This document shows, piece after piece, positions 11,449-39,355 of a stretch of 64,000 nucleotides of DNA (its first letter is position 1; every line of letters begins with the position of its first letter). The stretch is taken from assembly GCA_036874045.1 (NCBI GenBank), contig CM072345.1, forward strand, positions 2,443,501 to 2,507,500. The letters run 5' to 3'. The DNA comes from Cymodocea nodosa (lineage: Eukaryota; Streptophyta; Magnoliopsida; Alismatales; Cymodoceaceae). Position numbers and translations under genes: made by a program. The notes beneath the pieces were generated by a model, which was not told the origin of the DNA, made no database searches, and saw nothing but the letters and a program-made list of their open reading frames with translations.

Positions 11449-11634
11449 CTTACCTTAGATTTTTCAACCTATTTGATTTTAAATAGTCTAAAAGCTTTAA
11501 AACAACTTGAGATTTAAATCAAGAAAGTTAAACGTATGCTCAGATATTAATTTCTGTTTAAAATCAAGGAAGGTAGAATAAACAATGATATTAAATAAGT
11601 TGGTATAGATTTTATATCAAAGATTATTAACAAA

Positions 11635-11646
11635 GCTCTGATACCA
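11635..11646 (-). other. Primer-binding site of Copia-S1
   Basis: On the minus strand TGGTATCAGAGC follows the 5' LTR end (CCTACA) after two bases. It matches the complement of the initiator tRNA-Met 3' end. Confidence 0.92.
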
Positions 11647-11648
11647 CT

Positions 11649-14242: not shown

Positions 14243-15581
14243 TTATACTGCTTCCCTCCCATAGGAGGTATCAATTTCATTAACAATTCTGTTGACAAGG
14301 TTAGGTACTACTTGCATTGGCAATCCTCTAGTAGGTTTAACTTCTATTGATTCCTTCTGTCTAGGGGGTATATTTCTATTCATATTTTGATTTTGAATGA
14401 CAGCATTTCCAAACACAAGATCTAGACGATTGTTTAATTATTGGATTATCTTTTCTAATTTCTTTATTTTAGATCCTTGTTCAATTAATGCTTCATAACT
14501 TATATTTTTATCATTTATATTTTCTCCTCCTTGGAAATTGTTATTTCTCCAAGATAGGTTCGGGTGATTTCTCCAATTGGGGTTATAAGAATTTCCAAAG
14601 TTATCTTTATGGTTTCTAGCATAAATAATATCTAAATCATTAACGTTTGCATTCTTTTCTACTAGCTTCTGATTTAATGATAACTCATCTATTTTCTTTG
14701 TTAATTCAGTTAACTTAACTTCAAGCATAGTGCTTGAATCTATTTCATGCATTCCCCTTGGTAATATTCTTTTATCTGTAATAGCTTCAACCGAGTTTTC
14801 CCACTATGCAGTTTTTTTTGCAAAGTTTTCTATGTATGCCCATGCTTCTTCACTACACAGTTTTAAAAATCCATTCTAACAAATAGATTCTAATAAAGAT
14901 TTCGTTAAAACATCTATGCCTTCATAAATTATACCTATTAATTGTGCTTTACTCATTGCATGATGTGGACATTGAGTCAGTAAATCTTTAAATCTTTCAA
15001 AATAATTCTCCCTACTTTTGGCTACACATTAATATTTCCTTTTTCTTTTTAATCGTTTGATGTGTTAGATAATATTTTTCCAGAAAAACAGAGCAAAATT
15101 CAGTCCATACAGAAATTGAATCAGACGACAGAGTATATAACCATCTCTTAGCTGTGTCTTTTAAAGCAAAAGGGATATATCTAAGTTTAATAGCATTTAT
15201 ACTCATGTTCAGCATTTTCATCATTTGACAAACTTCGTTAAATTCTCTAAGGAAATAATAGACATCCTCTCTTTCTAATCCATGAAAATGTGGCAATTGA
15301 CTAATATAATTAGATTTCAATTCAAACCTACCTCCCTCAAAGTTTGGCAATCGAATACATGAAGGTTCATCAACTAATTCAAGATATAGAATTTCCCTTA
15401 ATGGTTTTTCTACTGGAGCAGCCATATATTCATTCTCTTTTAAAGAAAGGTTAGCTATAGCCCTAAGGATTTCCTTAAAGTTCGATTCAGAAAATATTTC
15501 AATACGTCTCTATGTTGAATAATCTTGTATAGGTGTTCTTACTAATCGTTTAGTGCTAGGAGAACGAATCCATGTGCTCAT
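14243..15581 (-). pseudogene. Capsid-type Gag of Gypsy-A1 lacking a zinc knuckle
   Basis: It is an Athila/Tat-like Gag of about 446 codons, from ATG 15581 to TAA 14243. It has the capsid block LPHFHGLEREDVYYFLREFN, IKLRYIPFALKDTAKRWLY and WTEFCSVFLEKYY, then a Lys-rich linker and the family motif GNSYNPNWRNHPNLSW. No CX2CX4HX4C is present anywhere. Stops or frameshifts occur near 15512 (TAG), 15012, about 14810 and 14438. In related plant families the zinc knuckle lies in the same polyprotein, ahead of the NPGWRNHPN motif; here it is found instead in a separate ORF at the 5' end of the element (35888-36196). A second copy is in Gypsy-A3. Confidence 0.8.
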
Positions 15582-16635
15582 AAAGTCTTAATATAAAGTA
15601 AAAAATCAGAAGATTAATTACATACCAGGCTAAAGCTTTATATTTAGTAAATAGTTGTTGACGGATGAAGTTGAATCAGCTGCTTCTCCTTCTAGTTCCC
15701 TAACGAATTTCCTTTTCTCCCCTTAAGTGCTAGTAACTTGTAAATAACATTCTATTTTATATTTATAATGCACATCCATAAAGCAAATAAATCTCATTGC
15801 AAGAACGTGTCTTGAAATGTGCAATGTGGTTCCTATTTTTATGGATACGTGTTCCACTTCTAATTTCAAATTTCAGTAACTGCTAAACCTACGAAGTTTC
15901 ATTCATGGCTAAAAGAGTAATTGTTCAGCTTAATTCATGAACTAACCTCATTGAGTTATAGTTAACTCAACGGACTAGCCTTAGTTACTGTTTCTAACTC
16001 AACGAACTAATCTCGTTGAGTTATAGCTAACTCAACGGACTAGCCTTGTCACCTATTTGCTAACTCCATGGACTAACCTCGTTGAGTTACAGATAACTCA
16101 ACGGAGTGACCTTATATTATATTATTGACCTCGTGGAGTTAAGGTTAACTCAATGAACTTACTTTGTTGAGTTAACACTTAGCAAATTTCTAAAACTTAC
16201 TCCTCGTATTAACTTCTATATATTTTTTTCTTCTCCTGTATTTTGTTAACTTAAATAAAGTTAAATACATGTCATTACTATAGTGTTCTAAATAAAACTC
16301 ATTTAAATCTGAACATTATATGCATATTTAACTTATAGTTCATTTCCTACTATGTAGAATTTACATTTTACTTTCAGCATGCAGATATATTCAAACATTA
16401 ACCAATTATCATGCATTTAATCCTATCAATCAGCAAATTTGTAAATCTTTTAAACAGTCTTGCTCATTATTTAAACAATTATATAATATTCAAGATAGTT
16501 CTCTATTATATCATTCTCAAACATGAATGAAAAATACATCTGAAAAACATACATTCATTTATATGAATAGTTTACATTACAATCAATCAGATATTTTTCA
16601 TACAAATATAAGTACAAGTAGACAAACAATACAAT
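15582..16635 (-). other. Spacer between third ORF and capsid Gag, with a cluster of near-palindromic words
   Basis: No coding region, LTR edge or primer site was found here, which argues against gag starting a separate element. About 15930-16190 is packed with copies of TAACTCAACGGACTA and its reverse form CGTTGAGTTA, several facing each other so that the RNA could fold into hairpins. On the minus strand a splice-donor-like GGTATGTAATTAATC lies near 15625. Confidence 0.6.
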
Positions 16636-18519
16636 TTAATCTTTCTTCCTAAGTTCATCTACTTCCTTCTAGAGTTTTTCTAATTGTTGCTCTAATTGAT
16701 TTATCTTCTCTACAGCTCCAATAATGCCTTTAGAAGGTTCAGCAATCTCAGCAGCAGCATAATTTCTGTATTCTTTCATTGAAATTGTTCTTGATCTGAT
16801 CCTTTTAGATGCCCATTTCGTGAAATCAATACTGTCCACCATCAGCAGTGGAATCAGATCTCCATAAAATAGTTTCTTCTTTACTGCTATCAACTTGGAG
16901 ATAAAAATTGCTGACTAATAAATCTAAATTTTGTTCACAACTGCATATGTGGCCCATTTGACAAATTGACTCAGTTCTATATCATGACTTTATCGTTGGT
17001 AGACATTCTTAATCAAAATGTTAACTATCATGTGTACTTTACCATTTAAGTGCTTCAGTCTATTTAATAATGGCACACTAGGATTGATAGCTAAACAATC
17101 CTTTATTATTTATTCTGTCCACTTGATTGCAGTTGTGCTTTCTAGAATTTCTATTCCTTCATTCTTCAGTCCTAAAATGTTGTGGAGAAGCTCTAGTGTT
17201 ATTTGTACATCAACTTGCTCCACGTTGGAAATTAATCCACTTTCTCCTTCTCTTAAATTTGCATAGAAGTAGGGCACTAGATTCTCATATACTGCATGCC
17301 CTCTCTACTGAGAAATAAATTATAGTAGACCCTAGAACTCAAATAAATCCTTAATTTCTTGCATCCTGTCCCAATTTACTGGTCTACTGTAAATGATATC
17401 ATAACCCCTAATCTCTTGTTATTTATTATATGCTTCCTGACTCCAAAAGTATACTTCATTCAAAACTATTGCTTCCATCGGGTTAGGAATTTGAATTTGT
17501 TGCTCTAGAGGGGTTTGTTCTTGAACTTCCTCTTCCATGTGCTAAACTTGAATTGGTTGAAAATGCTCTAGAGATTCTTGCATTTTATCTTCTACTTTTT
17601 TCTGTGGTGGTGAGCTGGCAAAACTCTCCACTCTATATTGAATTCTTTCCAAAACTTACTCATCAGTGGAATTTATCAAGTCATTTCGTTCTTGTTCAAT
17701 ATGCTCTTGTTTAGCTTCTTGTTCAGTTTCTTCTTTTTCTTCTTCCTCCTAACTACCAATCTGCATTGTCATTGTTCTTTCTGATTCTGTGGTAGATTGG
17801 GATGGAGTTACGAGCAAATCATCTTCTACCCTAATTTTTGTTTGTACAGGCTGTAGATTATTTTCAGCTTGATTTTCTTCTTCTCTTTGCTCTTGCTGCT
17901 GCTACTCCTACTCATCCTTAGAATCAGATAGTAGGTCTACAAAAATCGGTTCTACAGGCCCTACTGATATTTGCATCTCAGATTAAATCTCTTCTTAATG
18001 TTCAAGCACTATCTCTTTCCTTTCCTTTTTCTAATTAATTGTGCCTGGTCTTCCTCTTCTTCTTCTGAGATTAAATCTACAAAAATAGGCTCTACAGGCC
18101 CTTGAGCCACAAGTACTGGCTCTTCTTGTTCAACTTTTTCTATAATTGCTGGTCTCGAAGGACCAACTTCAATTCCTTTTGCAGCACTTAATCTAGTTGC
18201 TTCTTGATGTTGCTCTACTTTAATTTTGTATTGAGCCTTCAACTTTTCTTCTGCCTGCCTTCTCTTTATGGCATCATATAGAATATGTGCCTTGGTTATA
18301 GCCAATTCTTCATTATCTCCTTGGTCTTTTGCTGTTTTGACCAAGCTAGCAAACTCTTTATCTTCTTCTTTAGTTCTCGGCCAAACAAATGCTATTTGTG
18401 GTAATGGTTCTGTTGGCGAGACTGAAGGTCCTAGCTATTGTTCCTTAGGGATAAGTCTTTCAATAGTCGATTCCTCTTGTTCTTTAGTTGCATCTTCTTC
18501 AGTTCCTTTCCTCTGTTGC
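16636..18519 (-). pseudogene. Third ORF of Gypsy-A1, C-terminal part
   Basis: The decayed minus-strand frame ends at about 16636. It contains a charged region with AEEKLKAQYKIKVEQHQEAT, an acidic patch (ISEEEEEDQ), then EAYNK, MQEIKDLFEF, YFYANL, ILGLKNEGIEI and KKKLFYGDLIP, ending in a short coiled coil (IGAVEKINQLEQQLEKL). These match in order the third ORF of Copia-S1/S2, though that is a different superfamily. Many stops are present. Copia-S2 (TSD GTTGC) separates this from the N-terminal part at 31856-32211. Confidence 0.7.
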
Positions 18520-20272
18520 TGTCGAGTATTTTTGTTTTGATGATATGTGCTGAATGAAAATAATCATATTTGCTCAATTACTATTGCTTGTGAAAAGAAA
18601 TTAAAATCATTAATTAATATAGAAAAAACTTACTAATATAAATACTTTTCTGTACTGGATCTGAAGTTAATAACTAGTCGTTTCGTTGCATTAATTTCTC
18701 ATTTAGCTAAACGTTAAGTTAACGTGTGTTTTTATTGAAAAGCATGATATGTTGTAAAGTTATATCTTCTGTATCATGAACAGTGCACATTTAGACAACT
18801 CGTTAAGTTAGAGTTTTGTTTGTATAGAGGTCACGTGAGAACTCGTTAAGTTAGAGGCTTAAAGGTTAAAATAGGTCACATGATAACTCGTTAAGTTAGT
18901 GAGTAAAAGAAGAGACGAACTCGTTAAGTTAGTGTTATACATGTGGTGAAATTATAAGTTACGAATGTTGTATTGTATCACGTGAGGTGCACATGTTTAA
19001 CTTGTTAAGTTAACATAACTAAACGCGTTGAGTTGCTATATTGAACACTAAGGCAACGCGTTAGGTTAGCGTTATAAACTTAAGTTGTTATTTTTGCACG
19101 TGGTAAAATTCTTATTATAAAAACATTTGTTTATTACTGAATCGATGAGTTAAAGTTTTTCGGAGAGTTACAGTCATAACTATCCGAAGGGTAACTTAAG
19201 TCATGTTTTTAGGCCTTGACACGTGTCTCACTAGTTTTATAATATAAAGAGTTTTTCGGTGACTTACATCCGTAACTATCCGAAACTTAAACTATTTTCA
19301 GTGAGTTATCGTTTAACCTTCCGAAAGAAAGGTTAAGCTGGTTCATTGAGTTAGCATAACACCACAAACTTAGTTCGTTGAGTTAGCTACAGTACTTGTC
19401 ATGTGGAATGGCACATGAGGAACTCCTTAAGTTAAAAACGTTAAGTTATATATATATACTTGTGTTACTCGTTTAGTTAACATTAAAGTAATGACTTCTT
19501 ATTACATTGATGAAAAATTTTTGGACGAGAAAGTTTATTTTGTAGGAAATTTTTCAGAGATCCAAGACTGATGATTAAAGGAAATTCGAAATATAAACGT
19601 GGGTTGGAACGTGTGTGTTTCGATGAAGGAAAAAGAAAAGACGTGAAGAAGTGGAAAACTGGTAGTGATTAAACGTGGAGGATATGCATGAAATAAAGAT
19701 ACAGTATAAAAGGCATAGAGTTCTCGTTGATCAAACCATCCTTGCACACAAAACGAAAAATCTTTTCAAGGATCAAACCATTCCTGCACACCAAAAGAAA
19801 AATCTTTTTCAGGGATTAGAAACACCTCTTCGGGCAAAATCTCTCAAGTGGAAGAAAATTCAGTGAAGCATAAAAAGGTAAGATTTTCGACACTAAAGAT
19901 TTGAAGTATCAGAAGAAAGCAAATTCGGTGAAGCATAAAAAGACAAGATATTCGTCACTGAAGAATTGTTGAAGAAGAAAGAAGAAGAAGAAGAAAGATC
20001 TCAAACAGGGAGAAATGTTTTAAATTTCGCAAATTAGTTTTCTCTGTTTGTAGTTATGAAATTGTATAGATGAAACATGGTATCGAAATATAATTACATC
20101 TACAATTCTTGAGGAGAATTGAATTGTATATTGTAATTGAAACCTTGAATAAAAATTATTTTATGAAAACAATATCTCGACTTGTTTTTGAGTTTTAAAG
20201 TTTCAATTATATTTCAGAAAATATTAAAAATACACAATTGACCCCCCTCTTGTGTAGCCATACGATCCTACA
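18520..20272 (+). repeat. 5' LTR of Copia-S2
   Basis: It starts TGTCGAGTATT and ends CCTACA. The U3 part holds AACTCGTTAAGTTAG copies spaced with CACGTG-type cores (18800-19080) and TTTCGG/CCGAA words (19150-19330). A (GAA)n tract at about 19973-20000 differs in length from that of the 3' LTR. Confidence 0.93.
19705..19713 (+). promoter_or_regulatory. TATA box in 5' LTR of Copia-S2
   Basis: TATAAAAGG lies about 570 bases before the LTR end and is retained in the other LTRs of the family (for example TATAAATGG near 31276). It probably sets the U3/R boundary. Confidence 0.6.
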
Positions 20273-20274
20273 AG

Positions 20275-20286
20275 TGGTATCAGAGT
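20275..20286 (+). other. Primer-binding site of Copia-S2
   Basis: TGGTATCAGAGT, matching the initiator tRNA-Met complement except for the last base, two bases after the LTR. Confidence 0.92.
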
Positions 20287-20472
20287 TTTGTTAATAATCT
20301 TTGATATAAAATCTATACCAACTTATTTAATATCATTGCTTATTCTACTTTCCTTGTTTTTAAACAAAAATTAATATCTGAGCATACGTTTAACTTTCTT
20401 GATTTAAGGCTCAAGTTGTTTTAAAGCTTTTAGACTGTTTAAAATCAAATAGGTTGAAAAATCTAAGGTAAG

Positions 20473-21675
20473 ATGGCTACTGGAAATGGTAACTTTTCTT
20501 TATATGAAGGCCAAAATCTTAATCGTCTTCCTTTATTTGATGGAATACATTTTGAATATTGGAAATATAGGATGACTATTTTTCTTCAAAGTATAGATCA
20601 TAAGTTGTGGTTCATGATTTCTAAACCATATACTCTGTTAACTACTCCTTATAATACTTGGATAATTACTGAAAAAGAAAATGAAACTTTGAATGCTAAG
20701 GGCTTAAATATTTTATTTTGTGCATTGAGTTATGAACAGTTCAATAAAGTGTCGGCATATAAATTTGCTTGTGAGGTGTGGTATGCATTAGAAGTTTCAC
20801 ATGAAGGTACTTCTCAAGTTAAAGAGACTAAAATAAACATGTTGATTCATAAGTATGAACTCTTTAGGATGCATGAAGACGAAAATGTTTCTGAGATGTT
20901 TTCTAGATTTCTTGATATCATAAACTCTTTAAAATGTTTAGGAAAGAATTTTGAATAGAAGGATTTGGTGAGGAAAATTCTCAAATCCCTAAGTTCTAAA
21001 TGGTCTCAGAAAGTAACATCAATTGAGGAATCACAAGATTTAAATGTTTATACTATGAATGAACTTATAGGAAATTTAAAAGCTTATGAAGTTCAATTAA
21101 ATGAATCACTCAGTCACAACAAACTAAAAATGAAGAAATAAATAGCCTTCCAAATTAATTCAGATTCTGATATATCTACTGATTCTGACGAGGATTTGAT
21201 TTTGCTGACTAGGAAATTCAAGAAAGCATGGAAAGCTAGGAAACAGCAAAGGAACAAAAATGATAAACCCTCAACGTCAAAATCACTTAATGATAAGAAT
21301 TCTTCATCTAGAAAGTATGTATGTTACAACTATAAGAAACCTGGACATCTTTCTCCAGATTGTCCTATGAGGAAAAATGAAAAGCAAAGTAGGACAAATC
21401 AGAAGAAGACGGCTCAGAATACTTAGAAAAAGTTTTACAAGAAAAAGGCTTTGAAGGTCACTTGGGATGACACGTCTGAAGAGTCTGAATCTGAGGAATC
21501 AACATCAAAATCTTCACATTCAGAAGGAGAACAAGAGTTAGAAGACGTTGCTCATGTGTGCTTCATGGCAGATGAGTCTGAGGTAATATCTAATCTTGAA
21601 AGTCATTCAGATTTCAACTTTGATGAATTATTATGTGCTTATATGCATTATTACAAAAACTTAAAGTATGTAAAC
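20473..21675 (+). pseudogene. Gag (capsid and zinc knuckle) of Copia-S2
   Basis: It starts at ATG 20473 with the same capsid block as Copia-S1. A TAG at 20956 replaces the Gln codon of S1 (KNFEQ). A TAA follows MKK at about 21140. The zinc knuckle is damaged: CYNYKKPGHLSPDC has Tyr for the second Cys, while it keeps the Gly that S1 has lost. A TAG follows QNT at about 21424. A small deletion near 21643 shifts the frame at the LLCAY block. Gag would package the RNA; this copy cannot make a complete protein. Confidence 0.85.
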
Positions 21676-22730
21676 TGAAAAATAAGAATATTAGAAAATC
21701 TTCATCCATTATGGAAGAAGAAAATTGTTTCCTGTCTACTACATTAGAAAAGTTTAAATGTGATAATGAAAATCATGCTAGAGATTTGCAAAAATTTAGA
21801 TTTAATGAATGTATCTTGCATGAACAAATATAGAATATAAATGTTGAAAAATTAAAGATAGAATCTAAAAATGAAATGTTGAGAAACGATATAAATGAAC
21901 TTGAATTAGAGATAGATAAATTAAAACTGAGAGAGCAAGATTTAAATTCTACAATTGAGAAATGGAATTTAAGTCAAACTAAGTTAGACAAACTAACTAG
22001 TACCCCTACGGTGTCTTATAAATTTGGCTTAGGATTTGATTATCCTGAATATCTTGAATCTCAAGCCAATAAAGGATTTATTAGTTGCAGTTAAAGTAAA
22101 TCTAAGATTAAAATTCCTTTTATTATGAAACAAGGTAATAAATATGTAGAAGTAGGTACTTCAAGGGATGAATCATGTAGTAATAATATAAATCAATGTG
22201 ATTTGTCAAATTGTACTTCTAACATGACTATAAATGTTTCTAAAAATCTTGTTTCTTGTTCTGGAAATTCAGTTTCTAATGTTTCTATAATTTCAGACAA
22301 TTGTAGTAAACTAAAAATTCAGAAACCTAAGCATGTAATTCAATACACTGGTATTAGACCAATTACTCATTCTGCATGTGATAAAACTAAAAATTCTTGT
22401 GTAGAAAAGGATTTTGTATGTACAGAAAATGTTAATACAAGTACAAAATCTTGGTATGAACTTACTGAAATGTATAAGCATGACCAAAATAAATTAACAT
22501 CTGATAAAAATCTGTTTGGTCTTGATTATGCTACATCTGAAAACAAAAAGAATGATTGTAAAAGTAATAATGCTATATGTGAGTATGAAGCTAATGATAA
22601 ATCAATAGTACTTACAACTAATAAGAATATAAATGATAATGTTAAACTATTTTTAAATAGAAAGAAGAAATATGCGTTTAATGAACTTGGTCCTCAACAA
22701 CATTGGGTACCAAGAAAAAGTTTTTCTTAA
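21676..22730 (+). pseudogene. Gag-Pol linker of Copia-S2 with coiled coil
   Basis: The Glu/Lys/Leu-rich coiled-coil region (DINELELEIDKLKLREQDLN) and the YKFGLGFDYPE block match Copia-S1. The frame is broken near 21831 (Gln to TAG) and 22093 (TAA). It continues as a long open frame at 22125-22730 rich in Asn, Ser and Lys, with no recognised domain, ending LGPQQHWVPRK just before PR. Confidence 0.65.
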
Positions 22731-22742
22731 TTTGTGTTATAG

Positions 22743-24536
22743 GAGGAAACAACATCAAAATGGATCTTGGACAGTGGAGCGTCAAGTCACATGACTGGAC
22801 AGAAAAGTCTATTACAAAATTTTACAAATACCATGAAAGGAAGTGTAACATTTGGAAACAAAAGCAAAGATAAAATCATAGGTATGGGCAATGTTTAAAT
22901 AACTCCTACTTGTGTTATTTCGAATGTACTATATGTAGAAAACCTAGGATTTAATTTGCTGAGTGTCATAAAACTAACTGAAAATGGATATTATGTAGTG
23001 TTTGAAGATAATGTATGCAAAATAATTGATAAAAATACAGATGAAATTAAATTTATTGCTAAAAGAAAAGGTTCTGTATGTATTTTATCTTTACCTTCTG
23101 GTGTAGTTGATTTAAATTCATGTTTGCTAGCTGAAACTAGTGATGCATATCTATGGCATAGAAGGATTGGGCATATAAATATGAGACTGTTACATAAACT
23201 ATCTAGAAAACATTTAGTGAGAGGTTTACCAAAGATTAAATACTCAAAGGACTTTATGTGTGATGCATGTAAGTTAGGTAAACTTCACAAAAACTCTTTT
23301 AAATCTAAAACTGATATTTCAAGCAAGAGAGTCTTAGAACTTATACATATGGATCTATTTGGACCAACAAGAATCATGAGTCCTGGTGGTAAATGGTATG
23401 TATTTGTTTTAGTAGATGACTTCTCTAGATACACTTGGGTATATTTTCTAGCATCTAAGATAGAAGTCTTTGAAAAATTTAAAATGTTTTGCAATTTTGT
23501 TCAAAATGAGCAGAGTGTCTCTATTCAAAAACTTAGGAGTGATCATGGAATTGAATTTAATAATAATCAAATGGATAACTATTATAATGAGCATGGCATT
23601 GATCACAGATTTTCTTTTCCAAGAGCACCGTGTCAAAATGGTGTTGTTGAGAGAAAGAATAGATCACTTCAAGAAATGGCTAGAACTATGTTGAATGAAC
23701 ATAAGTTACCTCAAAATCTTTGGGCTGAAGTAATAAATACAGCTTGTTATGTTATTAACAAAAGTCATTTAAGACCTCATGTTAATAAAACTCCTTTTGA
23801 AATTATGTTTAATAGGGTTCCAAAAGTTTCCTATATGAAACCATTTGGCTGCAAGTGTTTTATTCTAAATACTAAGGATAAAAGGGATAAATTTCAAGCC
23901 AAATCAGATGAAGGAATTTTTGTAGGTTACTCTACTAGAAGTAAAGCCTATAGAATATATAACAAGACTTCTAGGACTATTGAAGAAACCCTCCATGTAA
24001 GCTTCAATGAAAATTCTCTTAGAGAATCTCAATCTAAAGCTGATAATGATGATATGATCAATTTTCCAAATGAGTTAGAGATCAATAGAGAGATTGATGA
24101 TTTATCTAAGAAAATCAAAAATATGAACTTAAATGATCAAACTAATGATGAAAGTGATGTACCTCCAGATGTTGATGAGAATATTGAGGAAAATCAAAGA
24201 AATTGGCGTTATTCTTCATCACATCCCATCACTCAAGTCATTGGTAATATTAATGAGGGAGTTAAAACTAGAGATTCAGTAAATTTAAATAGTATGTGTA
24301 TGTTTGTTTCTTTGGTGGAACCAAGGAATATACAAGAATCATTATCTGATGAAAATTGGATAGTGTTAATGCAAGAAGAACTAAATCAATTCATCAGAAA
24401 TGATGTATGGGAATTAGTCTCTCCACTAGAAAATCAGTCCATAATAGGTACAAAGTGGATCTTTAGAAACAAAACTAACGAAACTAGTCAAATTATAAGG
24501 AATAAAGCTAGATTAGTTGCACAAGGGTATATATAG
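22743..24536 (+). pseudogene. Protease and integrase of Copia-S2
   Basis: PR shows WILDSGASSHMT at about 22761, then a TAA near 22897 inside the PR tail. A 526-codon open frame (22956-24536) follows: the GAG-pre-integrase zinc finger (HRRIGH.. CDACKLGKLH), then the INT core with Asp in HMDLFGP, Asp in LRSDHGIEF and Glu in CQNGVVERKN, completing the DDE triad. It continues through the INT C-terminus (GCKCFILNTKDKRDKFQAKS) into the start of RT (GTKWIFRNK). This is the best preserved enzyme frame in the window. It ends at a TAG in the RT block QGYI. Confidence 0.9.
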
Positions 24537-25850
24537 GAAGAAGGATTAGATTATGATGAAAAATTTGCTCATGTGGCTAGGTTAGAAAGTATTAGAATAT
24601 TATTGGACTATGCTTGTTATATGGATTTTAAATTATATCAAATGGATGTAAAGAGTGCATTTCTAAATGGTTTAATTAATGAAGAAGTCTATGTAAAACA
24701 ACCACCTGGATTTAAAGATATAAAAAATCCTGACTTTGTGTATAAATTGAAGAAAGCCTTATATGGTTTGAAGTAAGCACTTAGATCATGGTATGAAAGA
24801 TTGTCTACTTTTTTAATAGAAAAAGGCTATATCATGGGAAAAGTGGATCATACTCTATTTATTAAGAGAGATGGTAAAGATCAGATTGTTGTTCAAATAT
24901 ACGTGGATGATATAATCTTTGGAGCAACTTCTGATAAGTTGATAGAAATATTCTCTGAAGAGATGACTAATCAGTTTGAAATGAGTATGATAGGAAAACT
25001 TTCATATTTTCTAGGACTTCAAATTAAGCAAATGGATAAAGGTATATTTTTAAATCAAGAAAAATATGTAGATGAAATGCTTAAGAAATTTAATTTTAAT
25101 GATACAAGGATTCAAGGAACTCCTATGAGTACTACTTTAAAGTTAGATATTGATGACATAGGAAAATCTATAGATCAAAGAAAATACAGAAGTATGATTG
25201 GTTCTTTACTTTATTTGACTGCTAGTAGACTTGATATTATGTTTGCTGTGTGTGTTTGTGCTAGATTTCAATCTAATCCTAAAGAATCACACTTAATTGC
25301 AGTTAAAAGAATATTTAGATATATACAAGGAACTAAAAATTTTGGACTGTATTATTCTAAGGATAGTTCAATAGATCTTATAGGATATACTGATGCTGAT
25401 TATGTAGGATCTAAATCTGATAGAAAGAGTACTAGTGGCACATGTCAATTATTGGGAAATAATTTGGTGTCATGGTTTAGTAAAAAGTAAAACTGTGTAG
25501 CACTTTCTACTACAGAAGCTGAATATGTTGCTGGTGCACTATGTTGCACTCAGATTTTGTGGATAAGGTAAACTTTAGAAGATTTTGGATTATCTTATGA
25601 TACAACTGAGATTTATTGTGACAGTAGTTCTGCAATAAATCTTTCCCAAAATCCTGTATTACATTCAAGAGCAAAGCATATAGAGGTTAGACATCATTTT
25701 CTAAGAGATAACGTAATTAAAGGAAAAATTAAATTAGAATTTGTGTCTAATAAAAATCAATTAGCTGATATATTTACAAAACCTTTAGACGAAAATACAT
25801 TCTGCAACATTAGACTAAATTTAGGTATTTGTAGGCTATGTGATGTGTAA
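24537..25850 (+). pseudogene. Reverse transcriptase and RNase H of Copia-S2
   Basis: RT blocks follow in order: QMDVKSAFLNG, KKALYGLK, and the catalytic YVDDIIFG at about 24900, then FLGLQIKQ and SLLYLTAS. RNase H follows with YTDADYVGS, TTEAEYVAG and YCDSSSAINLS, ending in DIFTKPLDEN. Stops at about 24774, 25488 and 25569 all fall where Gln is expected (CAA to TAA). RT copies the RNA, and RNase H removes the template. The terminal TAA is at 25848. Confidence 0.9.
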
Positions 25851-27427
25851 AATGCTTAAACTCCACATAAAAAGATAAATATTATTGATGATGTTGTTCA
25901 CCTCATAGATATTATATACTTATTATAAATATCTAAAGTAATATCTAAACTGCTGCTTAAGATACTATGTATTTATTGTAAAATCATAGTAGTATCTTAT
26001 TGATTTTAAGTAGTTTATCAATTTTAATGGTTTTTACGATTTTAAGTGGAAATGTAAATGAAAAACATTAAATACTTCTGACATTCTGAAATTTTGATTA
26101 AATGTTTTCTTTGAATCAAGGAAAATGCATATGATCATGCATAAATTTGACTTAATTGATTAAACTTGTAGAATAAGTTATATGTAACTCATCTTAAACT
26201 ATTAATCAAAAATATAAGCTTATTGAAACTGATAAATATTCTCAGTACAATCATAGAAGTAAAAATTGTATGAGATTTGTGTTTTATTGCATCTGTATTA
26301 ATGGAATACATATATACTGTGCTTAAAATGAAAAGTGCTTGCAAAATGAAAATCTTTGAGAGTTTATTGATCATGAGCCTTTTGTACTTGAGCAGATAGG
26401 TATGTAAGGATTGTTGTCCTGAAAAAGGATTCTTTAAATTTGGCAACCTAAGGTCCTGATTAGATCTGGGATTGTTGACTGAAAGCTCATTACACGGGTA
26501 CATTAGAAAGCTCTTGTATGATTCAAGCTTTTCAAACTAACTTTTAAAGAAAATTATCAATATTTACTGTTTTGAAAAGAAAAAGTTGTTTCATTAATTA
26601 CAGATATCTTTGAATCGCATATAGTTTCTACCAGTATGACTACTGATTTATTGAATCAACATTAGTACTTTTGAAAACATTTATTTGAGATACATTCTTT
26701 TATTCTCCTTGAATTAATCACATTGAGTTCAAAGTTGTGTTTTGATTCATATACAATAGGAATTGATTCTGGAAATCATTTTTGATGATGTCAAGATAAC
26801 GAAAGTCTTTGAAAAGAAAATTTAAAAGTATAGTTATACTTAACATCTATTATCACTACAAGTATATTTTGTATGTTGATTGAATATATTTGAAGTATAT
26901 TTGTAGGGGGAGGATTAACAATGTCAAAAATAGATTAATATAATTTAGAATACAAATCTTAGTTAATTTGAATTAATGTCCTCTCAAAATCTTGATGAAA
27001 TAATTTAAAAAGACAAATAAACTATTTTAGATTCAAAGGACAAAATGTTCAAATAGTTTACAATGTTCTCAAGATAATGTTAAGTTTAGCTTGTGTGTTG
27101 TTTTTAGATCGTTTCAGTTGGAAGCATCCGAAAATTGTTTACTGTATTAACTAGACGTTATGTTAGATAAGGTAACGTGTAAAAATGCCTCTAGACAGTA
27201 TTTTACTCGTTAGGTTAGTTAACTCAACGAGTTATACTTGAATATTTCAGGTACCTTGATTGAATAAACTTTATTCAATGTTTATTTAATTTCTAAACCC
27301 GACTTCTCTTCACGTTAAGTTATACGCCTAAAAACCCTATTTAAACACTTATTACACGGGCACTTAGGTTATTTGTAAACTTTGTTAAGAAAATTTTTCC
27401 TGCTTGTTGCTATTACAACCTGCGACG
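25851..27427 (+). other. Spacer between pol and third ORF of Copia-S2, with the shared module
   Basis: Noncoding counterpart of 6557-8168. The conserved core is at about 26344-26545 and has AGATAGGTATGTAAGGATTG (5' splice-site-like) and two GAAAGCTC copies. The region is homologous to 59.1-60.15 kb in Gypsy-A3 on the opposite plus/minus orientation, that is, in the sense direction of both elements. Confidence 0.7.
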
Positions 27428-29690
27428 ATGGTCTCCAAGTTCTACAAAGGTCGTGGTAGAGGAAAAGGCAAAAGCAGAGGAGATGCAAAAGGAAAAGAAA
27501 TAGAGAATGACGAAGTTACACGTACTTGGTTCAAGAAAATATTTCGAGTGGACAAAAGGTTAGCAGAAATTTATAGTGAATATTTCTTTCCTGAAGGTAT
27601 ACTAAATGAAGTTAGACAAGAACTCCAAAATACAGATGCTAGTATTACATACATGGGTATTCGTAGTAAATTTAATAAAGAATACAGAATGAAATGTGTT
27701 GAGATTGCATTTTTGGAACAGTATGCAAAATATTTGGAAAAAGGTGTAGGTTCATCAAATAGAACTCCTCAAACTCCTATAAACGGTACAAGACTACATG
27801 CATTTGAGGAAGAGCATGAATCAGCTATCCCTACTCCTTTATATTCAAAACAAGTAGAATCAGATATTACTGTAGACAAAACAAAAGTTGATAGTCTTCG
27901 AAAGGCCGTTGCAATAGAAAGTGTCTTACAAGAATTAAAGCAGAAAACTTTTATGGAGCAATTTGAAAAGAAAACAGCAATACTTGAAAAGGAGAAACAG
28001 AAATGTTATAGAAGAAGGAAAGTCAGAAAAATTATGTATAAGGAAACAAAGTCTATTGAAAAAGGAAAATCAGACAAAAATTTATTTCGAAAGGATAATG
28101 TATGTCTAGACATTGTACCTTATTGTGCATCTGATAAACTCATCAGTTCTGAACACACTGAAACTGATGAAGATAATGAGACTTTATTTTCCCTTGCTAG
28201 AAAGCTTGAGAAGAAATACAAGTCAAATATGAGCTCAAATTTTTCTATTAGTACAAGTCCTGATGATGCAAAAATTAACAAATCAGAGCACCAGACACCT
28301 GACATTGAACAAGTTATTGCAGATATAATTGACAATGTTGAAGCAGTAACTAGTTCACATGCTGAATTATCTGGAGTAGCAGATATTGAAAATGTTAAGA
28401 CTCCAGAAGAGCTAAAAAGTTAACCAGCCTTCTACAAAATCTATAGAAGTAGAGTCTGAGAATTCACAACATGAATCAATGGAATTATCTGTTGAACAAA
28501 ATGAACAATTACAGACAGATACATCGGTTGTAGAATTTGTGGAAAAATTGAACTCTGAACATTCTATAGAGACTGAACAGATGAATGTTGAGCATATTGA
28601 CAATGATCCTAACACTATTGAAGCTGAAGAATCAAGCTTACTTGAGCAGCTTCAAGATAATATTTTGGAAGAGGAACAACATGACATTCATTTTGAAGAA
28701 GAGGTTCCTAAAGATGAATTAAACTTTGAATCACAGCTTCAGGTATCACCTTCTTTGTATACAATATTAAAAATTCAAGGTAATGCAATTCATTTTAGAT
28801 CTGAAGAAGCATTGTAGAAATACAATAATCTGATTACATGTCAGATTCTACATGCTCATCCAATAAAATTCAGAAATTTGATGGAAATAAGAGATCTGTT
28901 TGAGTTTCAAGGCCTCATTAAATTCTTGCCAGTAGGAATGAAATGGAAGCAATACACAGAGCTTATTACAGCTTTTTATAGCAATCTGGTCAAGAATGGA
29001 AATTTTCTGAAAACTCAAATAAATGAATTGGAGTTTATATTGTCTCCTGAGTTAATTTTTGAAGTTTTATGATTAAAGAATGAAGGTGTTGTTGTTACCA
29101 ACATATTTGACATGATAAGACAACTGGAATGGAACATTCAGTCTTTATCAAAAATTCTAGATGTATATTCTGAAATGAGATTAATGGAAAATCTGAATGC
29201 AGCGGCAATGTTTATTGCAAATATATTGCATGCAAATTTATTTCAAAGAGTTGGACACAATTTGGAAGTCAGCAGAAGCTGTTTATATGCAACTTATGGC
29301 CTACTGAATAGAATTCAAATAAATTGGTTTGATGTATTTATGTCTCAACTACAGCATATGAGTTCAAAGTTATTTTATGGTGATACTGTATGTAGAATCC
29401 TTGCAAGCCAATTGACTTTATCCAACTGGCCCTCTGAAACTAAAGGCATGAGAGCATTTAGTGTCAAAGATTTGCAAAAATTTCAGGCCATGCATAAACC
29501 TCAATGACAACAACAACAACCTGATACAGACCATATACAACAACAACAAAGTTATTCAGTTCAAGCAGAACAGCAAACCTAGTTACCTCCTAACTTAGAT
29601 GCAGTGTTTAACGACATCAGAAATGATATTAGGCATCTAGGAGATAAAATATGTAATGCAATAAGTGATATACTTAAGAGGGGTCGATAA
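27428..29690 (+). pseudogene. Third ORF of Copia-S2
   Basis: From ATG 27428 to TAA 29688, about 754 codons. The first 332 codons are open (basic RGRGKGKSR head, then an acidic Ser/Glu-rich region). An extra A in the run at 28416-28420 shifts the frame (S1 has one fewer). TAG at 28816 and TGA at 29503 replace Gln and Arg codons of S1. The globular part has IHFRSEEAL, LFEFQGLIKF, KLFYGDTVCR; the tail is Gln-rich. This is the SIRE 'env-like' position, but no signal peptide or membrane helix was seen, so envelope function is not supported. Confidence 0.72.
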
Positions 29691-30091
29691 CTGTTTTTGT
29701 TTGTTTCTGAATACAAAATGTAATGTTTTTATTACTTGTTTGATTCTTTGAACAATACATTTTTCTGTAAATGTGTTCAATTATTATTCTTGTTTACAGA
29801 AATCGTTGTTGTAATTCTCTTATATACGTATATATATTTTCTGTAATTATCTTTTTGATTAATGACAAAAAAGGAGAGAAATATTATAAAAAGATGATTA
29901 TGATCTTAATTGCATATATATATTATAAAAGGAGATGCTATTTAAATGGTTATTGTAATAGATGATAATTAGAAAACTGATACTTATATAATTATTGACA
30001 TTTGAGAGTTTTAGTTCTGAGAGGTAAAATTTACACAAACAATAGAAATAAGCTTAAGTCATAATTGATTTAATATGGTTTTGTCATCATC
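29691..30091 (+). other. 3' untranslated region of Copia-S2
   Basis: AT-rich and noncoding, matching 3916-4397 of Copia-S1; it leads directly to the PPT. Confidence 0.7.
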
Positions 30092-30105
30092 AAAAAGGGG
30101 GAGAT
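30092..30105 (+). other. Polypurine tract of Copia-S2
   Basis: AAAAAGGGGGAGAT immediately before the 3' LTR start TGTTGAG. Confidence 0.92.
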
Positions 30106-31855
30106 TGTTGAGTATTTTTGTTTTGATGATGTGTGCTGAATGAAAATAATTATATTTGCTCAATTACTATTGCTTGTGAAAAGAAATTAAAATCATCAAT
30201 TAATACTGAAAAAGCTTACTGATATAAATACTTTTCTGTATTGGATCTGAAGTTAATAACTAGTCGTTTCGTTGCATTAATTTCTCATTTAGCTAAACGT
30301 TAAGTTAACATGTGTTTTTATTGAAAAGCATGATATGTTTTAAAGTTATATCTTCTGTATCATGAACAGTGCACGTTTAGACAACTCGTTAAGTTAGAGT
30401 TTTGTTTGTATACAGGTCACGTGAGAACTCGTTAAGTTAGAGGCTTAAAGGTTAAAATAGGTCACGTGATAACTCGTTAAGTTAGTGAGTAAAAGAAGAG
30501 ACGAACTCGTTAAGTTAGTGTTATACATGTGGTGAAATTATAAGTTACGAATGTTGTATTGTACCACGTGAGTTGCACATGTTTAACTCATTAAGTTAAC
30601 ATAACTAAACACGTTGAGTTGCTATATTGAACACTAAGGCAACGCGTTAGGTTAGCGTTATAAACTTAAGTTGTTATTTTTGCACGTGGTAAAATTCTTA
30701 TTATAAAAACATTTGTTTATTAGTGAATCGATGAGTTAAAGTTTTTCGAAGACTTACAGTCGTAACTATCCGAAAGGTAACTTAAGTCATGTTATCAGGT
30801 CTTTACACGTGTCTCACTAGTTTTATAATATAAAGAGTTTTTCGGTGACTTACATCCGTAACTATCCGAAACTTAAACTATTTTCGGTGAGTTATCGTTT
30901 AAACTTAAGCTGGTTTGTTGAGTTAGCATAACACCACGAACTTAGTTCGTTGAGTTAGCTATAGTACTTGTCATGTGAAATGGCACATGAGGAACTCGTT
31001 AAGTTAAAAACGTTAAGTTATATATATATACTTGTGTTACTCGTTTAGTTAACATTAAAGTAACGACTTCTTATTACACTGATGAAAAATTTTTGGACGA
31101 GAAAGTTTATTTTGCAGGAAATTTTTCAAAGATCCAAGACTGATGATTAAAGGAAATTCGAAATATAAACGTGGGTTGGAACGTGTGTGTTTCGATGAAG
31201 GAAAAAGAAAAGACGTGAAGAAGTGGAAAACTGGTAGTGATTAAATGTGGAGGATATGCATGAAATGAAGATAGAGTATAAATGGCATAGAGTTCTCGTT
31301 GATCAAACCATCCTTGCACACAAAACGAAAAATCTTTTCAAGGATCAAACCATTCCTACACACTGAAAGAAAAATCTTTTTTAGCGATCGAAAACAGCTC
31401 TTCGGGCAAAATCTCTCAAGTGGAAGAAAATTCAGTGAAGCATAAAAAGGTAAGATTTTCGACACTAAAGATTTGAAGTATCAGAAGAAAGCAAATTTGG
31501 TGAAGCATAAAAAGACAAGATATTCGTCACTGAAGAATTACTGAAGAAGAAAGAAGAAGAAGAAGAAGAAGAAGAAGAAAGATCTCAAACAGGGAGAAAT
31601 GTTTTAAATTTCGTAAATTAGTTTTCTCTGTTTGTAGTTATGAAATTGTATAGATGAAACATGGTATCGAAATATAATTGCATCTACAATTCCTGAGGAG
31701 AATTGAATAGTATATTGTAATTGAAACCTTGAATAAAAATGATTTTATGAAAACAATATCTCGACTTGTTTTTGAGTTTTAAAGTTTCAATTATATTTCA
31801 GAAAATATTAAAAATACATAATTCACCCCCCTCTTGTGTAGCCATACGATCCTAT
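30106..31855 (+). repeat. 3' LTR of Copia-S2
   Basis: It pairs with 18520-20272. Differences include a longer (GAA)n tract at about 31545-31580, loss of the CCTTCCGAAAGAAAGG stretch near 30900, and the terminal CCTATA. Confidence 0.93.
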
Positions 31856-32211
31856 AGTTGCTCCTAGATTGCCCACCGTGCATGTCCACCTATGCCTCTT
31901 TTGAACCATAGTTAGGACTTACGTTGGATCAATTCTAGGGTAACTTCATTATTTGGTTTGATTTTTCTCTCTCTATTTAATGCAACATCTATAGCTACTT
32001 TGATTCTTTTTTCCATAATCTGAGGTATTTATATGCCTAAATCCACTAAAACTTTTCTCTAGTAGAAAAGATCAGATTTTACCTTTTGTAGCTCTTTTTC
32101 CCTCGTCGTATTTCTGATCTTTTGCCTTGTGTACCATTCTTCCGATTCTTTAAGAAATCTTGTCATGTCAATTGCTTCCTCCTAGAATTCTGGTGTCATC
32201 TTTTTCATCAT
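31856..32211 (-). pseudogene. Third ORF of Gypsy-A1, N-terminal part
   Basis: The likely start is ATG 32211 (MMKKMTPEF) followed by a Lys/Glu-rich, probably helical segment (REKELQKVKSDLFY, KRIKVAIDVALNRERK). Several stops interrupt it. It continues, past Copia-S2, at 18519. No domain is recognised in this part by itself. Confidence 0.5.
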
Positions 32212-32934
32212 AGAGTTACGAAATGGAACGGAATCGCTCTGATCTCTACTATTCTAAGTTCTAAATGATTCTACGGATAATGCCCCCAAACCCTAAGTTT
32301 AGTATAAATAAGCCCTAAGTTTAAGCGGGTAAACGGGTCATTTTTCTGCACAAACTCTCGCTCTCTCATCTACCTCTCCATGGAATTACGATTAACTCCA
32401 CGGACTAAGTACGTGGACTTAACTACAGTACTCCATTGAGTTATAGTTAACTCAACAGGGTAAATTTGTTAACTTATCCTAGACTCAACGAAGTAAGTTC
32501 GTTGAGTTAAGCGTAACACAATGGACTTTCCATAAAGTTATATCTAATAAAATTACTTATAATAATAATTTTTACTTTAGTCAAGATTGAAGAGTTTTCA
32601 GTCTAACCGACTCTTAATTTTCCAACATTTTAAAATTTCGGTCAAACCGTTATATTCCTTGGTTGCACCAAAATTAATTAAATTTTTTATTATTATTATC
32701 AATTAAACCGATACTATACTTCGGTAACATCGACACTATACTAAATATAATATATAGATTTTTTTATGTTTTTGTGTTTCGATCAGACCAATGGATCTTG
32801 TCGGTTGAACCGCAACGATTTTTTTTCTTTTAAAATATATTTCGGTAAAATCGATAATTCCTTTCGGTTGAACCATGACTATGTTTAAATAATGTTCTTT
32901 TTTTTTGACAAAACAAATAATTAGCTAATTTTTA
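32212..32934 (-). other. Spacer between INT and third ORF of Gypsy-A1, with two repeat-word clusters
   Basis: It is noncoding. 32380-32530 holds TTGAGTTATAGTTAACTCAA, GTTCGTTGAGTTAAG and related words. 32585-32890 holds a different recurrent word built on TCGGTTGAACCG / TTCGGTAAAATCGAT. Neither cluster is explained by a known element. Confidence 0.6.
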
Positions 32935-33896
32935 CTAAGTAAAGCTCAAGTAGTCCTCTACTCTTACTTCTTCTATAATTCCAAAGGAGCTTTTTGGTAT
33001 TTTCAGAATAGGTCTAAGCTTTTGTCCATTTACTTTAAATATATTCTGATTTTTAGGATTTTCAATTTCAATAGCTCCATAGGAATAAATATTTCAAATT
33101 ATGTAAGGTCCTACCCATCTAGATCTTAATTTTCCTAAATGGTTATGGAGTCTAGTCATGCAAAGATATACTTCTTGTCCTATTTCAAAGGTTTTGGAAT
33201 AATTTTTTTGTCATGCTAGAACTTCATTTTCTCTTTTTTTCTTACAATTTTCGAATAAGCTTCATTCCTAAATTCTTCCAATTCAATCAATTGCATTTTC
33301 CTATTTTCAACAACTTGATTTAAATTAGTGTTCAGAGTTTTTAATGCCCAATAAGCTTTATATTCAATTTCAACTGGTAAATGACAACCTTTTCCATATA
33401 CTAGCCTAAAAGGTGACATACCTAAGCTTGTCTTATAAGCAGTTCTATAAGCCCAAAGTAAATCTATTAATCTATTAGCCCAATCTTTTCTAATAGGATT
33501 TATTACTTTTTCTAAGATTAACTTAATTTGTTTGTTTGCACTTTTTACTTATCCACTTGTTTGCAGATGATATGATATTGCAATTTTGTGATTTACTCCA
33601 TATTTCTTCATTAAGGCTTCAAAACTTCTATTACAGAAATGAGTTCCTCTATTACTGATAATAGCTTTAGGTATTCCAAATTTGGCAATTATATTAGTTC
33701 TTATAATATGTATTACCACTTTGTTGTCATTAGTTTTTGTAGGAATAGCTTTTATCCATTTAGATACATAATCCACCTCCAACAATATATAATTAAATTG
33801 ATTAGACATAGGAAATTGACCTATAAAATCTATTCCGCACACATCAAAGATTTCAACCTCAACAATAGGATTGAGAGGCATCATATTCCTCTTTGA
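32935..33896 (-). pseudogene. Integrase of Gypsy-A1
   Basis: The gypsy INT core begins MMPLNPIVEVEIFDVCGIDF (first catalytic Asp), then VDYVSKWIKAIPT, AIISNRGTHFCN (the second catalytic Asp is Asn here; Gypsy-B keeps ISDRGTHF), a stop near the Glu block, the MSPFRLVYGKGCHLPVE block and the C-terminal FKVNGQKLRPIL tail. The HHCC zinc finger is missing because a deletion joins this frame to RT at about 33900. INT would insert the cDNA; this copy is dead. Confidence 0.85.
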
Positions 33897-34397
33897 TATT
33901 CTTCCTATTTAAATCTTTGACATAGGCCCTACTAATCTTTCCAGCATTTGATCTATAAAAGGTAAGGGAAAATGATCTTTCCTAGTCACAGCATTTAGCT
34001 TTCTATAGTCTATACACACTCTCCAGCCTGATTGAATTATAGTAGGTATCAAGTCCTGACTTTCATTCACAATAACTGTTAATCCTGATTTCTTGGGAAC
34101 TACATGGATTGGACTAACTCATGAGCTATGAGAAATAGGATAAACTATGTCATTATCTAACCATTTCACTATTTCCTTCCTGACTACTTCTTTAAGGTTT
34201 GGATTTAATCTCCTCTTAGGAATTCTAACTGGTTTAGCATTCTCTTCTAAATATATGTGGTGATAACATAAAGTTGCATTTAACCATTTTATATCCATCA
34301 TAGTCCATCCTATTGCTTCTTTATAAGTTTTTACTACATCTTTTAATTTAACAATTTGATCTTCTTTTAAATCAGAAGCAATAATGATTGGACATGT
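33897..34397 (-). pseudogene. Reverse transcriptase N-terminal part of Gypsy-A1
   Basis: It shows YLEENAKPVRIPKRRLNPNL, VVRKEIVKWLDNDIVYPIS, SPIHVVPKKSG, GWRVCIDYRKLNA and DHFPLPFIDQMLERLVGP, the gypsy RT fingers region. It then stops: the palm with the FMDD box and all RNase H are absent, and INT follows almost at once. Gypsy-B shows the full arrangement, with about 1.4 kb between these points. Confidence 0.85.
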
Positions 34398-35266
34398 TCA
34401 TTTTTCTTCCAGAAATATATAGGTTAATTTAGGAGGTAAATATTTTAAATCTAAATGTTGCCCATCAGAAGCTAGAGCTCCTAATTGAACAACATCATTT
34501 TCTAAATTAATTTCTTCTTGATCTCCTTCTATATTTATGCTTTCACTTTCTCCTAAAGTTTCAAAATTTAGTTGCTTATTTAGTTCTTCTTGAATCACAT
34601 CATCTAGCATATCTCCTTCATCCTCCAAAAAGTCTATAGTATGTAAGGACATTTCTAACTCAAACTTTTCTGGTTTAAAAATGTTTAATTGAGTATCCTC
34701 ATTACCATATGCTAACTTCATTACTCCAGTTTTACAATTTATAACAGCCCTTGATGTTGCTAAGAATAGCCTTCTCAAGATTAAAGATGTATCACAATTT
34801 TTATGCTTAATTTGTTGGGAATCCAAAATTACAATATCAATAGGATATATGAAATTTTTTATTTTAATTAAGACATCCTCTTTTTTCCTCTAGGGTATCT
34901 TATACTTCTATCAGCTAATTGAATAACAGTCCTAGTAGGAATTAAGCATTCTAATCCTAAGGATACAAATATATCACTTGGCATAACATTTATACCTACA
35001 CCTAGGTCTATTAAGGTTTTTTCTAGAATGGTATTTCCTATGGTGCATGATATAATAGGAATTCTAGGATCAGATAACTTTTTAGGAATTTGTGGTAGAA
35101 ATAGGGAACTACTTTGCTCAGCTAAGAAGACTTTCCTTAAAACTTTTCGCTCTCTTTTCTTAGTACACTAATCCTTAAGAAATTTAGCACAAGGTGGCAT
35201 TTTCTGCAATAAGTCTAAGAAAGGAATGTTAACTTGTACTTTTTCAAAAATTTCTCTAATTTTTTC
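34398..35266 (-). pseudogene. Aspartic protease region of Gypsy-A1
   Basis: The minus-strand reading gives NIPFLDLLQKMPP, the TLIDLGVGINVMPSDIFVSL active-site block (DLG in place of the commoner D[ST]G, as usual for this plant family), DRSIRYP, and TSLILRRLFLATSRAVINCK. An acidic linker to RT follows (ends at 34398). Frameshifts occur near 34890 and 35170. Confidence 0.8.
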
Positions 35267-36196
35267 TTATTTTTCAGGAAATGTTTGTTGTAATATTTCA
35301 AGATATGGTGCTAATGATTGTGATTTAAAAGATTCTTTTTCTTTCATTTCATTTGTTTGATCATTTTTAGTATCATTTTCAGGTTCAGATTTTTCTTCAT
35401 TTATTTCTATGTTTTTAGATATTACATTTTCATTATCATTTTGATTTTTGCTCTTATCCACCTTCATATTACTTTCTTTTTGAATTCTTGGAGGTATATC
35501 AGTTCCAGATCTTAATGTTATACATACATCTTCCAGATTTTCGTTACTTTCATGATGTTCCTGTATATCATTTTTGTGATTATGATCTTCAACTATTTTT
35601 AGTTTTAAATTGCATTCTTTAAATTCTATTGCATTGGTATTTTCTTTTGTTTGTATATCTTGCAAATTTTGCACTTTTGTAACATTAAAGTTTTTGTTTG
35701 TGTTTTCTTGTTGCATAACTTGTAATTTCATTGTAAATTTGTCCAATGCTTTTAGTTTTCTTTCCAGATCATCTAATGTCATTGCATTCAATTTTTGATG
35801 AATTTTCATTATGATTTTTTTAGTTTCATAAATTATATCAATTTTAGGTTCTGAATATTCTTCTCTATAGTTTAATTGGTTAACTTCTTATTGCTGCCAC
35901 ATGTATTGTTCCAATTTGTCCATGTTTTGCACTAAGCTACGTCTGCCATACCTATCCCAAACTTCCTTGTCTCTCAACATATTACACATTTTAAACTGAC
36001 CATCAGTTGGGTAAACTATAGGATTCTCATACTCAGCTCTATTATATTGAAGATAATTCATTTGTTGTTCATGTGATCTAACCATCTGCAACCATCTTAG
36101 TTTCAAACAATCAGAGATGTTGTGACCTTCCAAATTGCAGAATTCACATATGCTAACTACAGGTTTCAGAAATCTTGGAGCATAAGCATATGCCAT
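35267..36196 (-). pseudogene. 5' ORF of Gypsy-A1: zinc knuckle first, no capsid
   Basis: From ATG 36196 (MAYAYAPRFLKPVVS) the knuckle CEFCNLEGHNISDC appears at residue 18 or so. A hydrophilic linker follows with CITLRSG, typical of the Gag-PR junction of Athila/Tat elements. There is no capsid domain between the primer site (36278) and the knuckle; only about 80 bases of leader. Stops occur at 35888 and at 35267 (PEK, TAA, EKIREIF). The capsid of the family is found instead at 14243-15581. Nucleocapsid RNA binding is expected from the motif. Confidence 0.82.
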
Positions 36197-36277
36197 ATTC
36201 TCAATTATAGAATAAAACACACAACACTCCTCTTGCTATTAAAACAAAACAACACTCACAATTGCTTAGCTTCTCAA

Positions 36278-36297
36278 TCCCCGGCAACAACGCTAGA
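36278..36297 (-). other. Degenerate primer-binding site of Gypsy-A1
   Basis: On the minus strand TCTAGCGTTGTTGCCGGGGA resembles the tRNA-Asp complement TGGCGCCGTTGCCGGGGA, with mismatches in the 5' half, which pairs with the tRNA 3' end. Gypsy-B has a better match. Confidence 0.6.
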
Positions 36298-39330: not shown

Positions 39331-39335
39331 AGTTT

Positions 39336-39355
39336 TCTAACGTCATTACCAGGGA
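39336..39355 (+). other. Degenerate primer-binding site of Gypsy-A2
   Basis: TCTAACGTCATTACCAGGGA, a weak match to the tRNA-Asp complement and clearly derived from the same site as in Gypsy-A1. Confidence 0.5.

Follow-up and report, generated by a model that had tools for sequence, protein, structure and literature searches.

The window analysed here, a 64-kb stretch of the Cymodocea nodosa genome (contig CM072345.1 of assembly GCA_036874045.1), holds nested long terminal repeat (LTR) retrotransposons, which were delimited by self-comparison as elements A1, A2 and A3 of one Ty3/gypsy family (family A), a related element B, and copia elements. The subject of this report is the Gag of family A, which is divided between the two ends of the element. 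The zinc knuckle of the nucleocapsid (NC) heads the 5' open reading frame (ORF), which continues into protease (PR) and Pol, and a knuckle-free capsid gene lies after a third ORF and before an F-box ORF. In A1, the order is LTR, primer-binding site (PBS), knuckle ORF, PR, a stub of reverse transcriptase (RT), integrase (INT), third ORF, capsid Gag and F-box ORF; the 3' LTR falls outside the window. The features of A1 and of the copia elements inserted in it, with their target-site duplications (TSD), are:

36303..38279, minus strand: 5' LTR (TGTTTAG...AAACA), sitting inside the A2 LTR
36278..36295, minus strand: primer site of tRNA-Asp type, 3/18 mismatches
35268..36196, minus strand: knuckle (NC) ORF, continuing via LRSG to the protease, interrupted by stops
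34900..35252, minus strand: protease region (Asp_protease_2 below the cut-off, and in related ORFs only, E 0.005 and 0.004)
33000..33900, minus strand: integrase (rve, E 5e-10), with RT and RNase H (RH) immediately upstream mostly deleted
32402..32510, minus strand: palindromic boxes in the interval between integrase and third ORF (4 matches)
18520..31854, plus strand: copia2, within A1 (TSD GTTGC)
16635..18519, minus strand: third ORF region, in env-like position (PF20167, E 0.005, below the cut-off)
15940..16174, minus strand: box cluster 5' of the capsid gene (10 matches)
15754..15767, minus strand: TATA motif of the capsid gene, 186-180 bp before the Gag ATG
14243..15581, minus strand: capsid Gag without knuckle, with stops and a frameshift near 15015
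13418..14036, resuming at 2139-1990 past copia1, minus strand: F-box ORF (F-box, E 2e-5)
2140..13411, minus strand: copia1, within A1 (TSD TCTGT), cutting the F-box ORF
1311..1652, minus strand: region resembling a polypurine tract (PPT), here PPT1

The A1 knuckle ORF begins at the ATG at 36196, 99 bp beyond primer-site position 36295 (primer sites were scored against the complement of tRNA-Asp). Knuckles in the window were called from the pattern CX2CX4HX4C and from alignment to P0003, a fragment of a standard Gag-Pol, their Pfam matches (E 0.05 and 0.005) both lying below the cut-off. An earlier note on this DNA had described the 5' ORF as a knuckle joined to PR, RT and INT without capsid; knuckle, PR and INT are in place, but most of RT and RNase H is missing from A1. 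Its statement that a capsid without knuckle lies downstream of pol and the third ORF holds, though a 13.3-kb copia (TSD GTTGC) parts the integrase from the third ORF. The capsid ORF runs from the ATG at 15581 to the Gag stop at 14243 and is broken by the frameshift and several stops; PF03732 matches its capsid piece (E 1.1e-6). When all six frames of the window were searched with a capsid profile built from two sequences, a single match was obtained, at 15422-15018 (E 7e-83; runner-up E 0.34), and no second capsid was detected at any of the 5' ends of A1, A2 and B. No LTR or PBS, on whose absence the earlier note had made its case depend, was found in the interval between third ORF and capsid (15582-16635) of A1, where the best tRNA-Asp match has 8/18 mismatches and blastn finds no LTR similarity beyond short box repeats.

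The other family A elements of the window are partial. As previously noted, A2 is knuckle-first like A1 and A3 has gag near the 3' LTR. A2 runs LTR-PBS-knuckle-PR, and A3 has Gag tail, F-box, polypurine tracts and LTR; the run from integrase to capsid is found in the window only in A1. A stretch of the A1 3' region (1664-1970) that is not in A3 and has an internal polypyrimidine run is perhaps a small insertion. The features of A2 and A3 are:

38280..39340, plus strand: A2 partial LTR and degenerate primer site
49282..51502, plus strand: A2 knuckle ORF, protease and RT start, in the same order as in A1
62151..62860, minus strand: A3 Gag tail without knuckle
60900..61950, minus strand: A3 F-box ORF
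58970..60339, minus strand: A3 PPT1 region and 3' untranslated region, ending in the PPT GTATGGGGGAAG
56985..58969, minus strand: A3 LTR, directly adjoining the PPT

Copies elsewhere were sought in the genome (374.6 Mb, 28 contigs), which yielded 5512 candidates for the capsid query and 4652 for the knuckle query, 150 of each being scored. The best 150 capsid candidates, ranked by score, have at least 89% identity, and 12 of them carry a stop; combining them with the best 150 knuckle places gave one pair less than 10 kb apart, with the capsid 7.1 kb downstream, which is uninformative. Thirty capsid loci, one of them the window itself, were cut out and their flanks inspected within 1.5 kb. The third-ORF end lies upstream of the capsid in 24/30 (not in L002, L011, L012, L015, L020 and L028), and the F-box lies downstream in 26/30 (not in L005, L006, L015 and L023). 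An extra box cluster takes the place of the third-ORF end in L011, L012, L020 and L028, which perhaps form a subfamily without that end.

Upstream stretches of 10 kb from ten loci all have the third ORF before the capsid, and seven contain the full order LTR, leader, knuckle, PR, RT, RH, INT, third ORF and capsid, with a gap of less than 215 bp between LTR match and knuckle. The three incomplete stretches are cut by a nested element (L034) or by copia-like sequence (L036 and L038). Downstream of ten other capsids, the Gag tail, F-box, PPT region and LTR start are present in 10/10 and the 3' untranslated region in 9/10. In nine copies, 96-167 bp separate the start of the primer site from that of the knuckle, and the primer site differs from the tRNA-Asp type at 1-4 of 18 positions. 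The F-box ORF is a regular part of family A, possibly captured from the host.

Two copies could be tested at both ends, from their 5' part as far as RT and their 3' part from the third-ORF end: C19, spanning 16.86 kb, has matching 5-bp TSDs GTACC, and C15 has CTATG. Both begin with LTR-PBS-knuckle-PR-RT and finish with third-ORF end, capsid, F-box, PPT and LTR, so that the order which the earlier note expected of TSD-flanked copies is kept in them; their partial LTR pairs give Kimura two-parameter (K2P) distances of 0.051 (411 sites) and 0.063 (761 sites). The LTR was reached in three of five 5' end windows, and its start was included in two. No TSD comparison was obtained for L052 and L053 (no LTR match in the end windows), L055 (window missing the LTR start) or L051 (3' LTR not reached in the stretch examined), and the LTR comparison of L029 (K2P 0.21 with 746 gap columns) was discarded as misaligned.

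The A1 5' ORF and 3' Gag are complementary halves of one Gag, as had been proposed. P0003 splits between both: its residues 1-142 align to the 3' Gag (E 4e-16) and its residues 255-400 to the 5' ORF (E 2e-13). The knuckle-LRSG-protease linker of P0003 also aligns to the B 5' ORF (E 8e-17). Database searches found three Gags with the Gag tail and 111 with a profile (7997 candidates scored), the latter from named plant sources including Papaver, Acorus and Ulmus and carrying no lineage names. Among the 28 Gags with a WRNHPN-like motif beyond residue 60, a CCHC knuckle precedes this motif in 21 by a relaxed pattern and in 17 by a strict one; of the seven without a pattern match, four have what looks by eye like a degenerate knuckle, and none is visible in the other three, which are near-identical models from Ulmus. 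At the matching place, the knuckle is present in P0001 and P0003, degenerate in P0002, and gone from the 3' Gags of A1 and A3, where the flanks on either side are conserved; by the relaxed pattern, 0/30 copies have a CCHC knuckle in the 3' Gag. One record, P0059, is a plant-type retrotransposon Gag filed as Streptomyces plicatus, which is probably a contamination.

Unbroken frames were found in separate copies. L004 encodes a 447-aa Gag (PF03732, E 4e-19; no knuckle family), and L058 a 608-aa knuckle-LRSG-protease ORF whose protease match (E 0.004) is below the cut-off. A single ORF of L040 contains the RT end (E 1e-7), RNase H (E 3e-36) and integrase (E 1e-14), with one RNase H region, between RT and INT. 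Ratios of nonsynonymous to synonymous substitution (dN/dS) were computed pairwise by the Nei-Gojobori method (NG86): between A1 and A2 they are 0.41 for the knuckle and 0.16 for PR, and between A1 and A3 0.40 for the Gag tail and 0.33 for the F-box. Across fetched copies (number in brackets), dN/dS is 0.24 for RNase H (8), 0.43 for the knuckle (9), 0.51 for the F-box (8), 0.52 for PR (8), 0.60 for the Gag tail (10) and 0.21 for the capsid (30), this last value being biased downwards by the choice of the 30 copies on protein score. The value for the third ORF (0.16) was set aside, its dS of 0.59 suggesting mixed subfamilies.

The spacers of family A carry palindromic boxes. The 10-mer CGTTGAGTTA, counted with one mismatch allowed (as it is palindromic, many sites are scored on both strands), occurs 97 times in the window versus a mean of 3.4 and a maximum of 8 in 20 Markov-1 simulations. 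In the A elements, the LTRs account for 17 matches and the spacers before the third ORF, capsid, F-box and PPT for 22; the coding pieces of A1, A2 and A3 have none, nor does B. The two large copias hold 55 (46 in LTRs, two inside gag ORFs), and three lie elsewhere. In 29/30 loci, boxes are found no more than 600 bp from the Gag start; 28/30 have a TATA motif between -120 and -250, at about 170 bp from the start, and 26/30 have the ATG itself in place. TATA was present in 26/330 overlapping upstream control windows. The gap from box to TATA before Gag is about 190-410 bp; in the A1 LTR, a TATA that A3 has as well follows the first box cluster at a distance of 206-484 bp. Outside the A1-like loci, identity to A1 is 82-92% in the box segment and 69-77% in the adjoining spacer, a difference that fits constraint or exchange. 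In the part of the Sirevirus literature consulted (PMC2829016), palindromic motifs begin 200-400 bp into the LTR, in its first half and upstream of TATA, and recur upstream of env.

From this organization, the capsid product is very probably separate from NC-Pol. Since boxes and TATA are laid out as in the LTR, and Sireviruses too have palindromic motifs before env, we infer internal promoters, and the capsid is probably expressed from one of them. It would then be transcribed separately, from a promoter laid out like that of the LTR; capsid and NC-Pol would form no single polyprotein, and two transcripts would set the Gag:Pol ratio. NC-Pol might be taken into the particle through its binding to genomic RNA, a tentative proposal that follows the route assumed for foamy virus Pol. 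Taken as a whole, the explanation that we favour, with some confidence, is a high-copy Athila-type Ty3/gypsy family with a reorganised Gag whose capsid has its own transcript.

Several points weigh against this explanation, besides the bias in the capsid dN/dS. The boxes are not strictly non-coding (8 matches in gag regions of the 30 copies); these copies are related, so that the TATA they have in common does not count as independent evidence, and the AT-rich DNA of the window has many TATA-like motifs. The A1-A3 spacer between Gag and F-box (K2P 0.043, 193 columns) is more conserved than the adjoining genes, and therefore coding constraint is not the sole force; conservation in this spacer also exceeds that of the PPT1 region (0.098) and of the LTR (0.188). 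Recruitment of NC-Pol via RNA is an analogy only. A wider proposal, that two genes under separate LTR-like promoters replace Gag/Gag-Pol, that NC sits on Pol so that packaging goes through RNA while the capsid has lost its knuckle, and that the boxes common with co-resident Sirevirus-like copias serve as joints for exchange of third ORF, capsid and F-box across superfamilies, is rather unlikely in its entirety.

The main rival keeps the same architecture but derives the capsid, third-ORF and F-box products from subgenomic RNAs that begin in the 5' LTR and are spliced, the boxes having another role. In BAGY2 and Athila, splice acceptors of the env-like ORFs have been predicted (PMC2829016), and acceptor-like TTATATAG and CAACAG, picked by eye, lie 5' of the F-box ATG. 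Splicing needs, however, no conserved box cluster and TATA upstream of Gag, and we regard it as the less likely route.

Another reading draws on element B, which occupies 39364..49281 on the plus strand (TSD AGAAG; LTR, PBS, knuckle ORF at 41101, PR, RT, RH, INT, LTR); B and copia C (TSD ATACC) are the two TSD-flanked insertions in A2, which is on the plus strand. B is related to the A elements, its PBS has 2/18 mismatches to the tRNA-Asp type, and a protein search with its knuckle ORF turned up no homologue. The six-frame capsid-profile search of the window detected no capsid in B, which may depend on capsid in trans. Such an element, TSD-flanked and with both LTRs, would suit a reading in which some relative uses capsid in trans and the 3' Gag of family A, which lacks a knuckle, is a derived Gag with a regulatory or interfering role, retained in the same way as the F-box, ordinary elements supplying the capsid. 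This seems improbable: the knuckle-first order is common to A and B, and therefore their ancestor already lacked a 5' capsid; the capsid is still under selection; and none of the 10 upstream stretches showed an ordinary Gag with capsid and knuckle together. A chance join of the 5' part of one element to the 3' part of another, which the heavy nesting of the window and the confinement there of the integrase-to-capsid run to A1 might suggest, was rejected as scarcely credible, since the same junctions recur in most of the 30 loci, the order is kept in 7/10 stretches and the TSDs of two copies match.

Further sequence is shared between A and the large copias. A 3' untranslated block has 76-78% DNA identity (59113-59966 versus 26077-26943 and 7077-7893), the A LTR stretch 37751-37981 matches copia LTRs at 72%, with box repeats also common to both, and the A1 third ORF has 30% protein identity to copia 28689-29489 (E 4e-36), which is sharing across superfamilies.

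The lineage name Athila, which we take to apply to family A, was checked in part. A tRNA-Asp primer site just after the LTR is present in nine copies, A1 and B, and the Gag is homologous to plant Gags of the same type. The order GAG-PROT-RT-RH-INT, given for Ty3/gypsy in the part of Neumann et al. 2019 used here (PMC6317226), is kept for PROT-RT-RH-INT, but the capsid follows INT and the third ORF; the CX2CX4HX4C motif, expected between capsid and protease of one polyprotein, is in the 5' ORF. The Sirevirus (Ty1/copia) order GAG-PROT-INT-RT-RH does not apply, as family A has RT-RH-INT. With Athila, Calypso and Diaspora, as far as described in the sections consulted (PMC1142308, PMC2829016), family A shares the tRNA-Asp primer site, the CX2CX4HX4C motif, PR-RT-RH-INT, the extra ORF after pol of most members and, for Athila4 and Calypso, an extra PPT. 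Gag is homologous as well, but in these elements Gag core, knuckle and Pol follow in series from the 5' end, whereas family A has its capsid after pol, together with an F-box ORF.

Sireviruses, which resemble family A in the placing of their palindromic repeats, differ in copia order and motif sequence, and the corresponding passage of PMC2829016 terms the motif Sirevirus-specific, whereas family A is gypsy. Foamy viruses, in the excerpts of PMC3196705 and PMC4198681 considered, likewise make Pol apart from Gag and have a Gag without Cys-His motifs; their order is gag then pol, the Cys-His motif of family A has moved to Pol, and the likeness drawn here is one of layout. By analogy, the gene layout would be compatible with a foamy virus-like strategy in which Pol is made apart from Gag and packaged through RNA. 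Retand/Tat elements also have a long region with extra ORFs between pol and 3' LTR, but these are antisense and, in the portion of PMC11963269 concerned, of TRP28 type in 97% of clusters, not capsid. In searches limited to open-licence PubMed Central (PMC) articles, no account of a Gag split as in family A was found.

Family A is an Athila-type Ty3/gypsy variant with an order outside the standard element descriptions. The Gag split, with knuckle 5' beside Pol and capsid 3', which the earlier note had put forward, is borne out by the A1 map and the genome copies. Surveys may have a blind spot here: in the large plant survey of Neumann et al. 2019, as its available text states (PMC6317226), elements with unexpected domain order were removed as likely mispredictions, and GAG was unidentifiable in 159 Ty3/gypsy elements. 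In the usual account, retroelements produce Gag and Gag-Pol from a single RNA, and capsid and NC belong to one protein. Family A, with thousands of candidate places in one genome, departs from this, and open ORFs for each half persist in different natural copies. If the expression proposed here is true, the family would provide a system for studying Pol recruitment without Gag-Pol fusion, RNA packaging by a knuckle-free capsid, and how genes of an element gain their own promoters.

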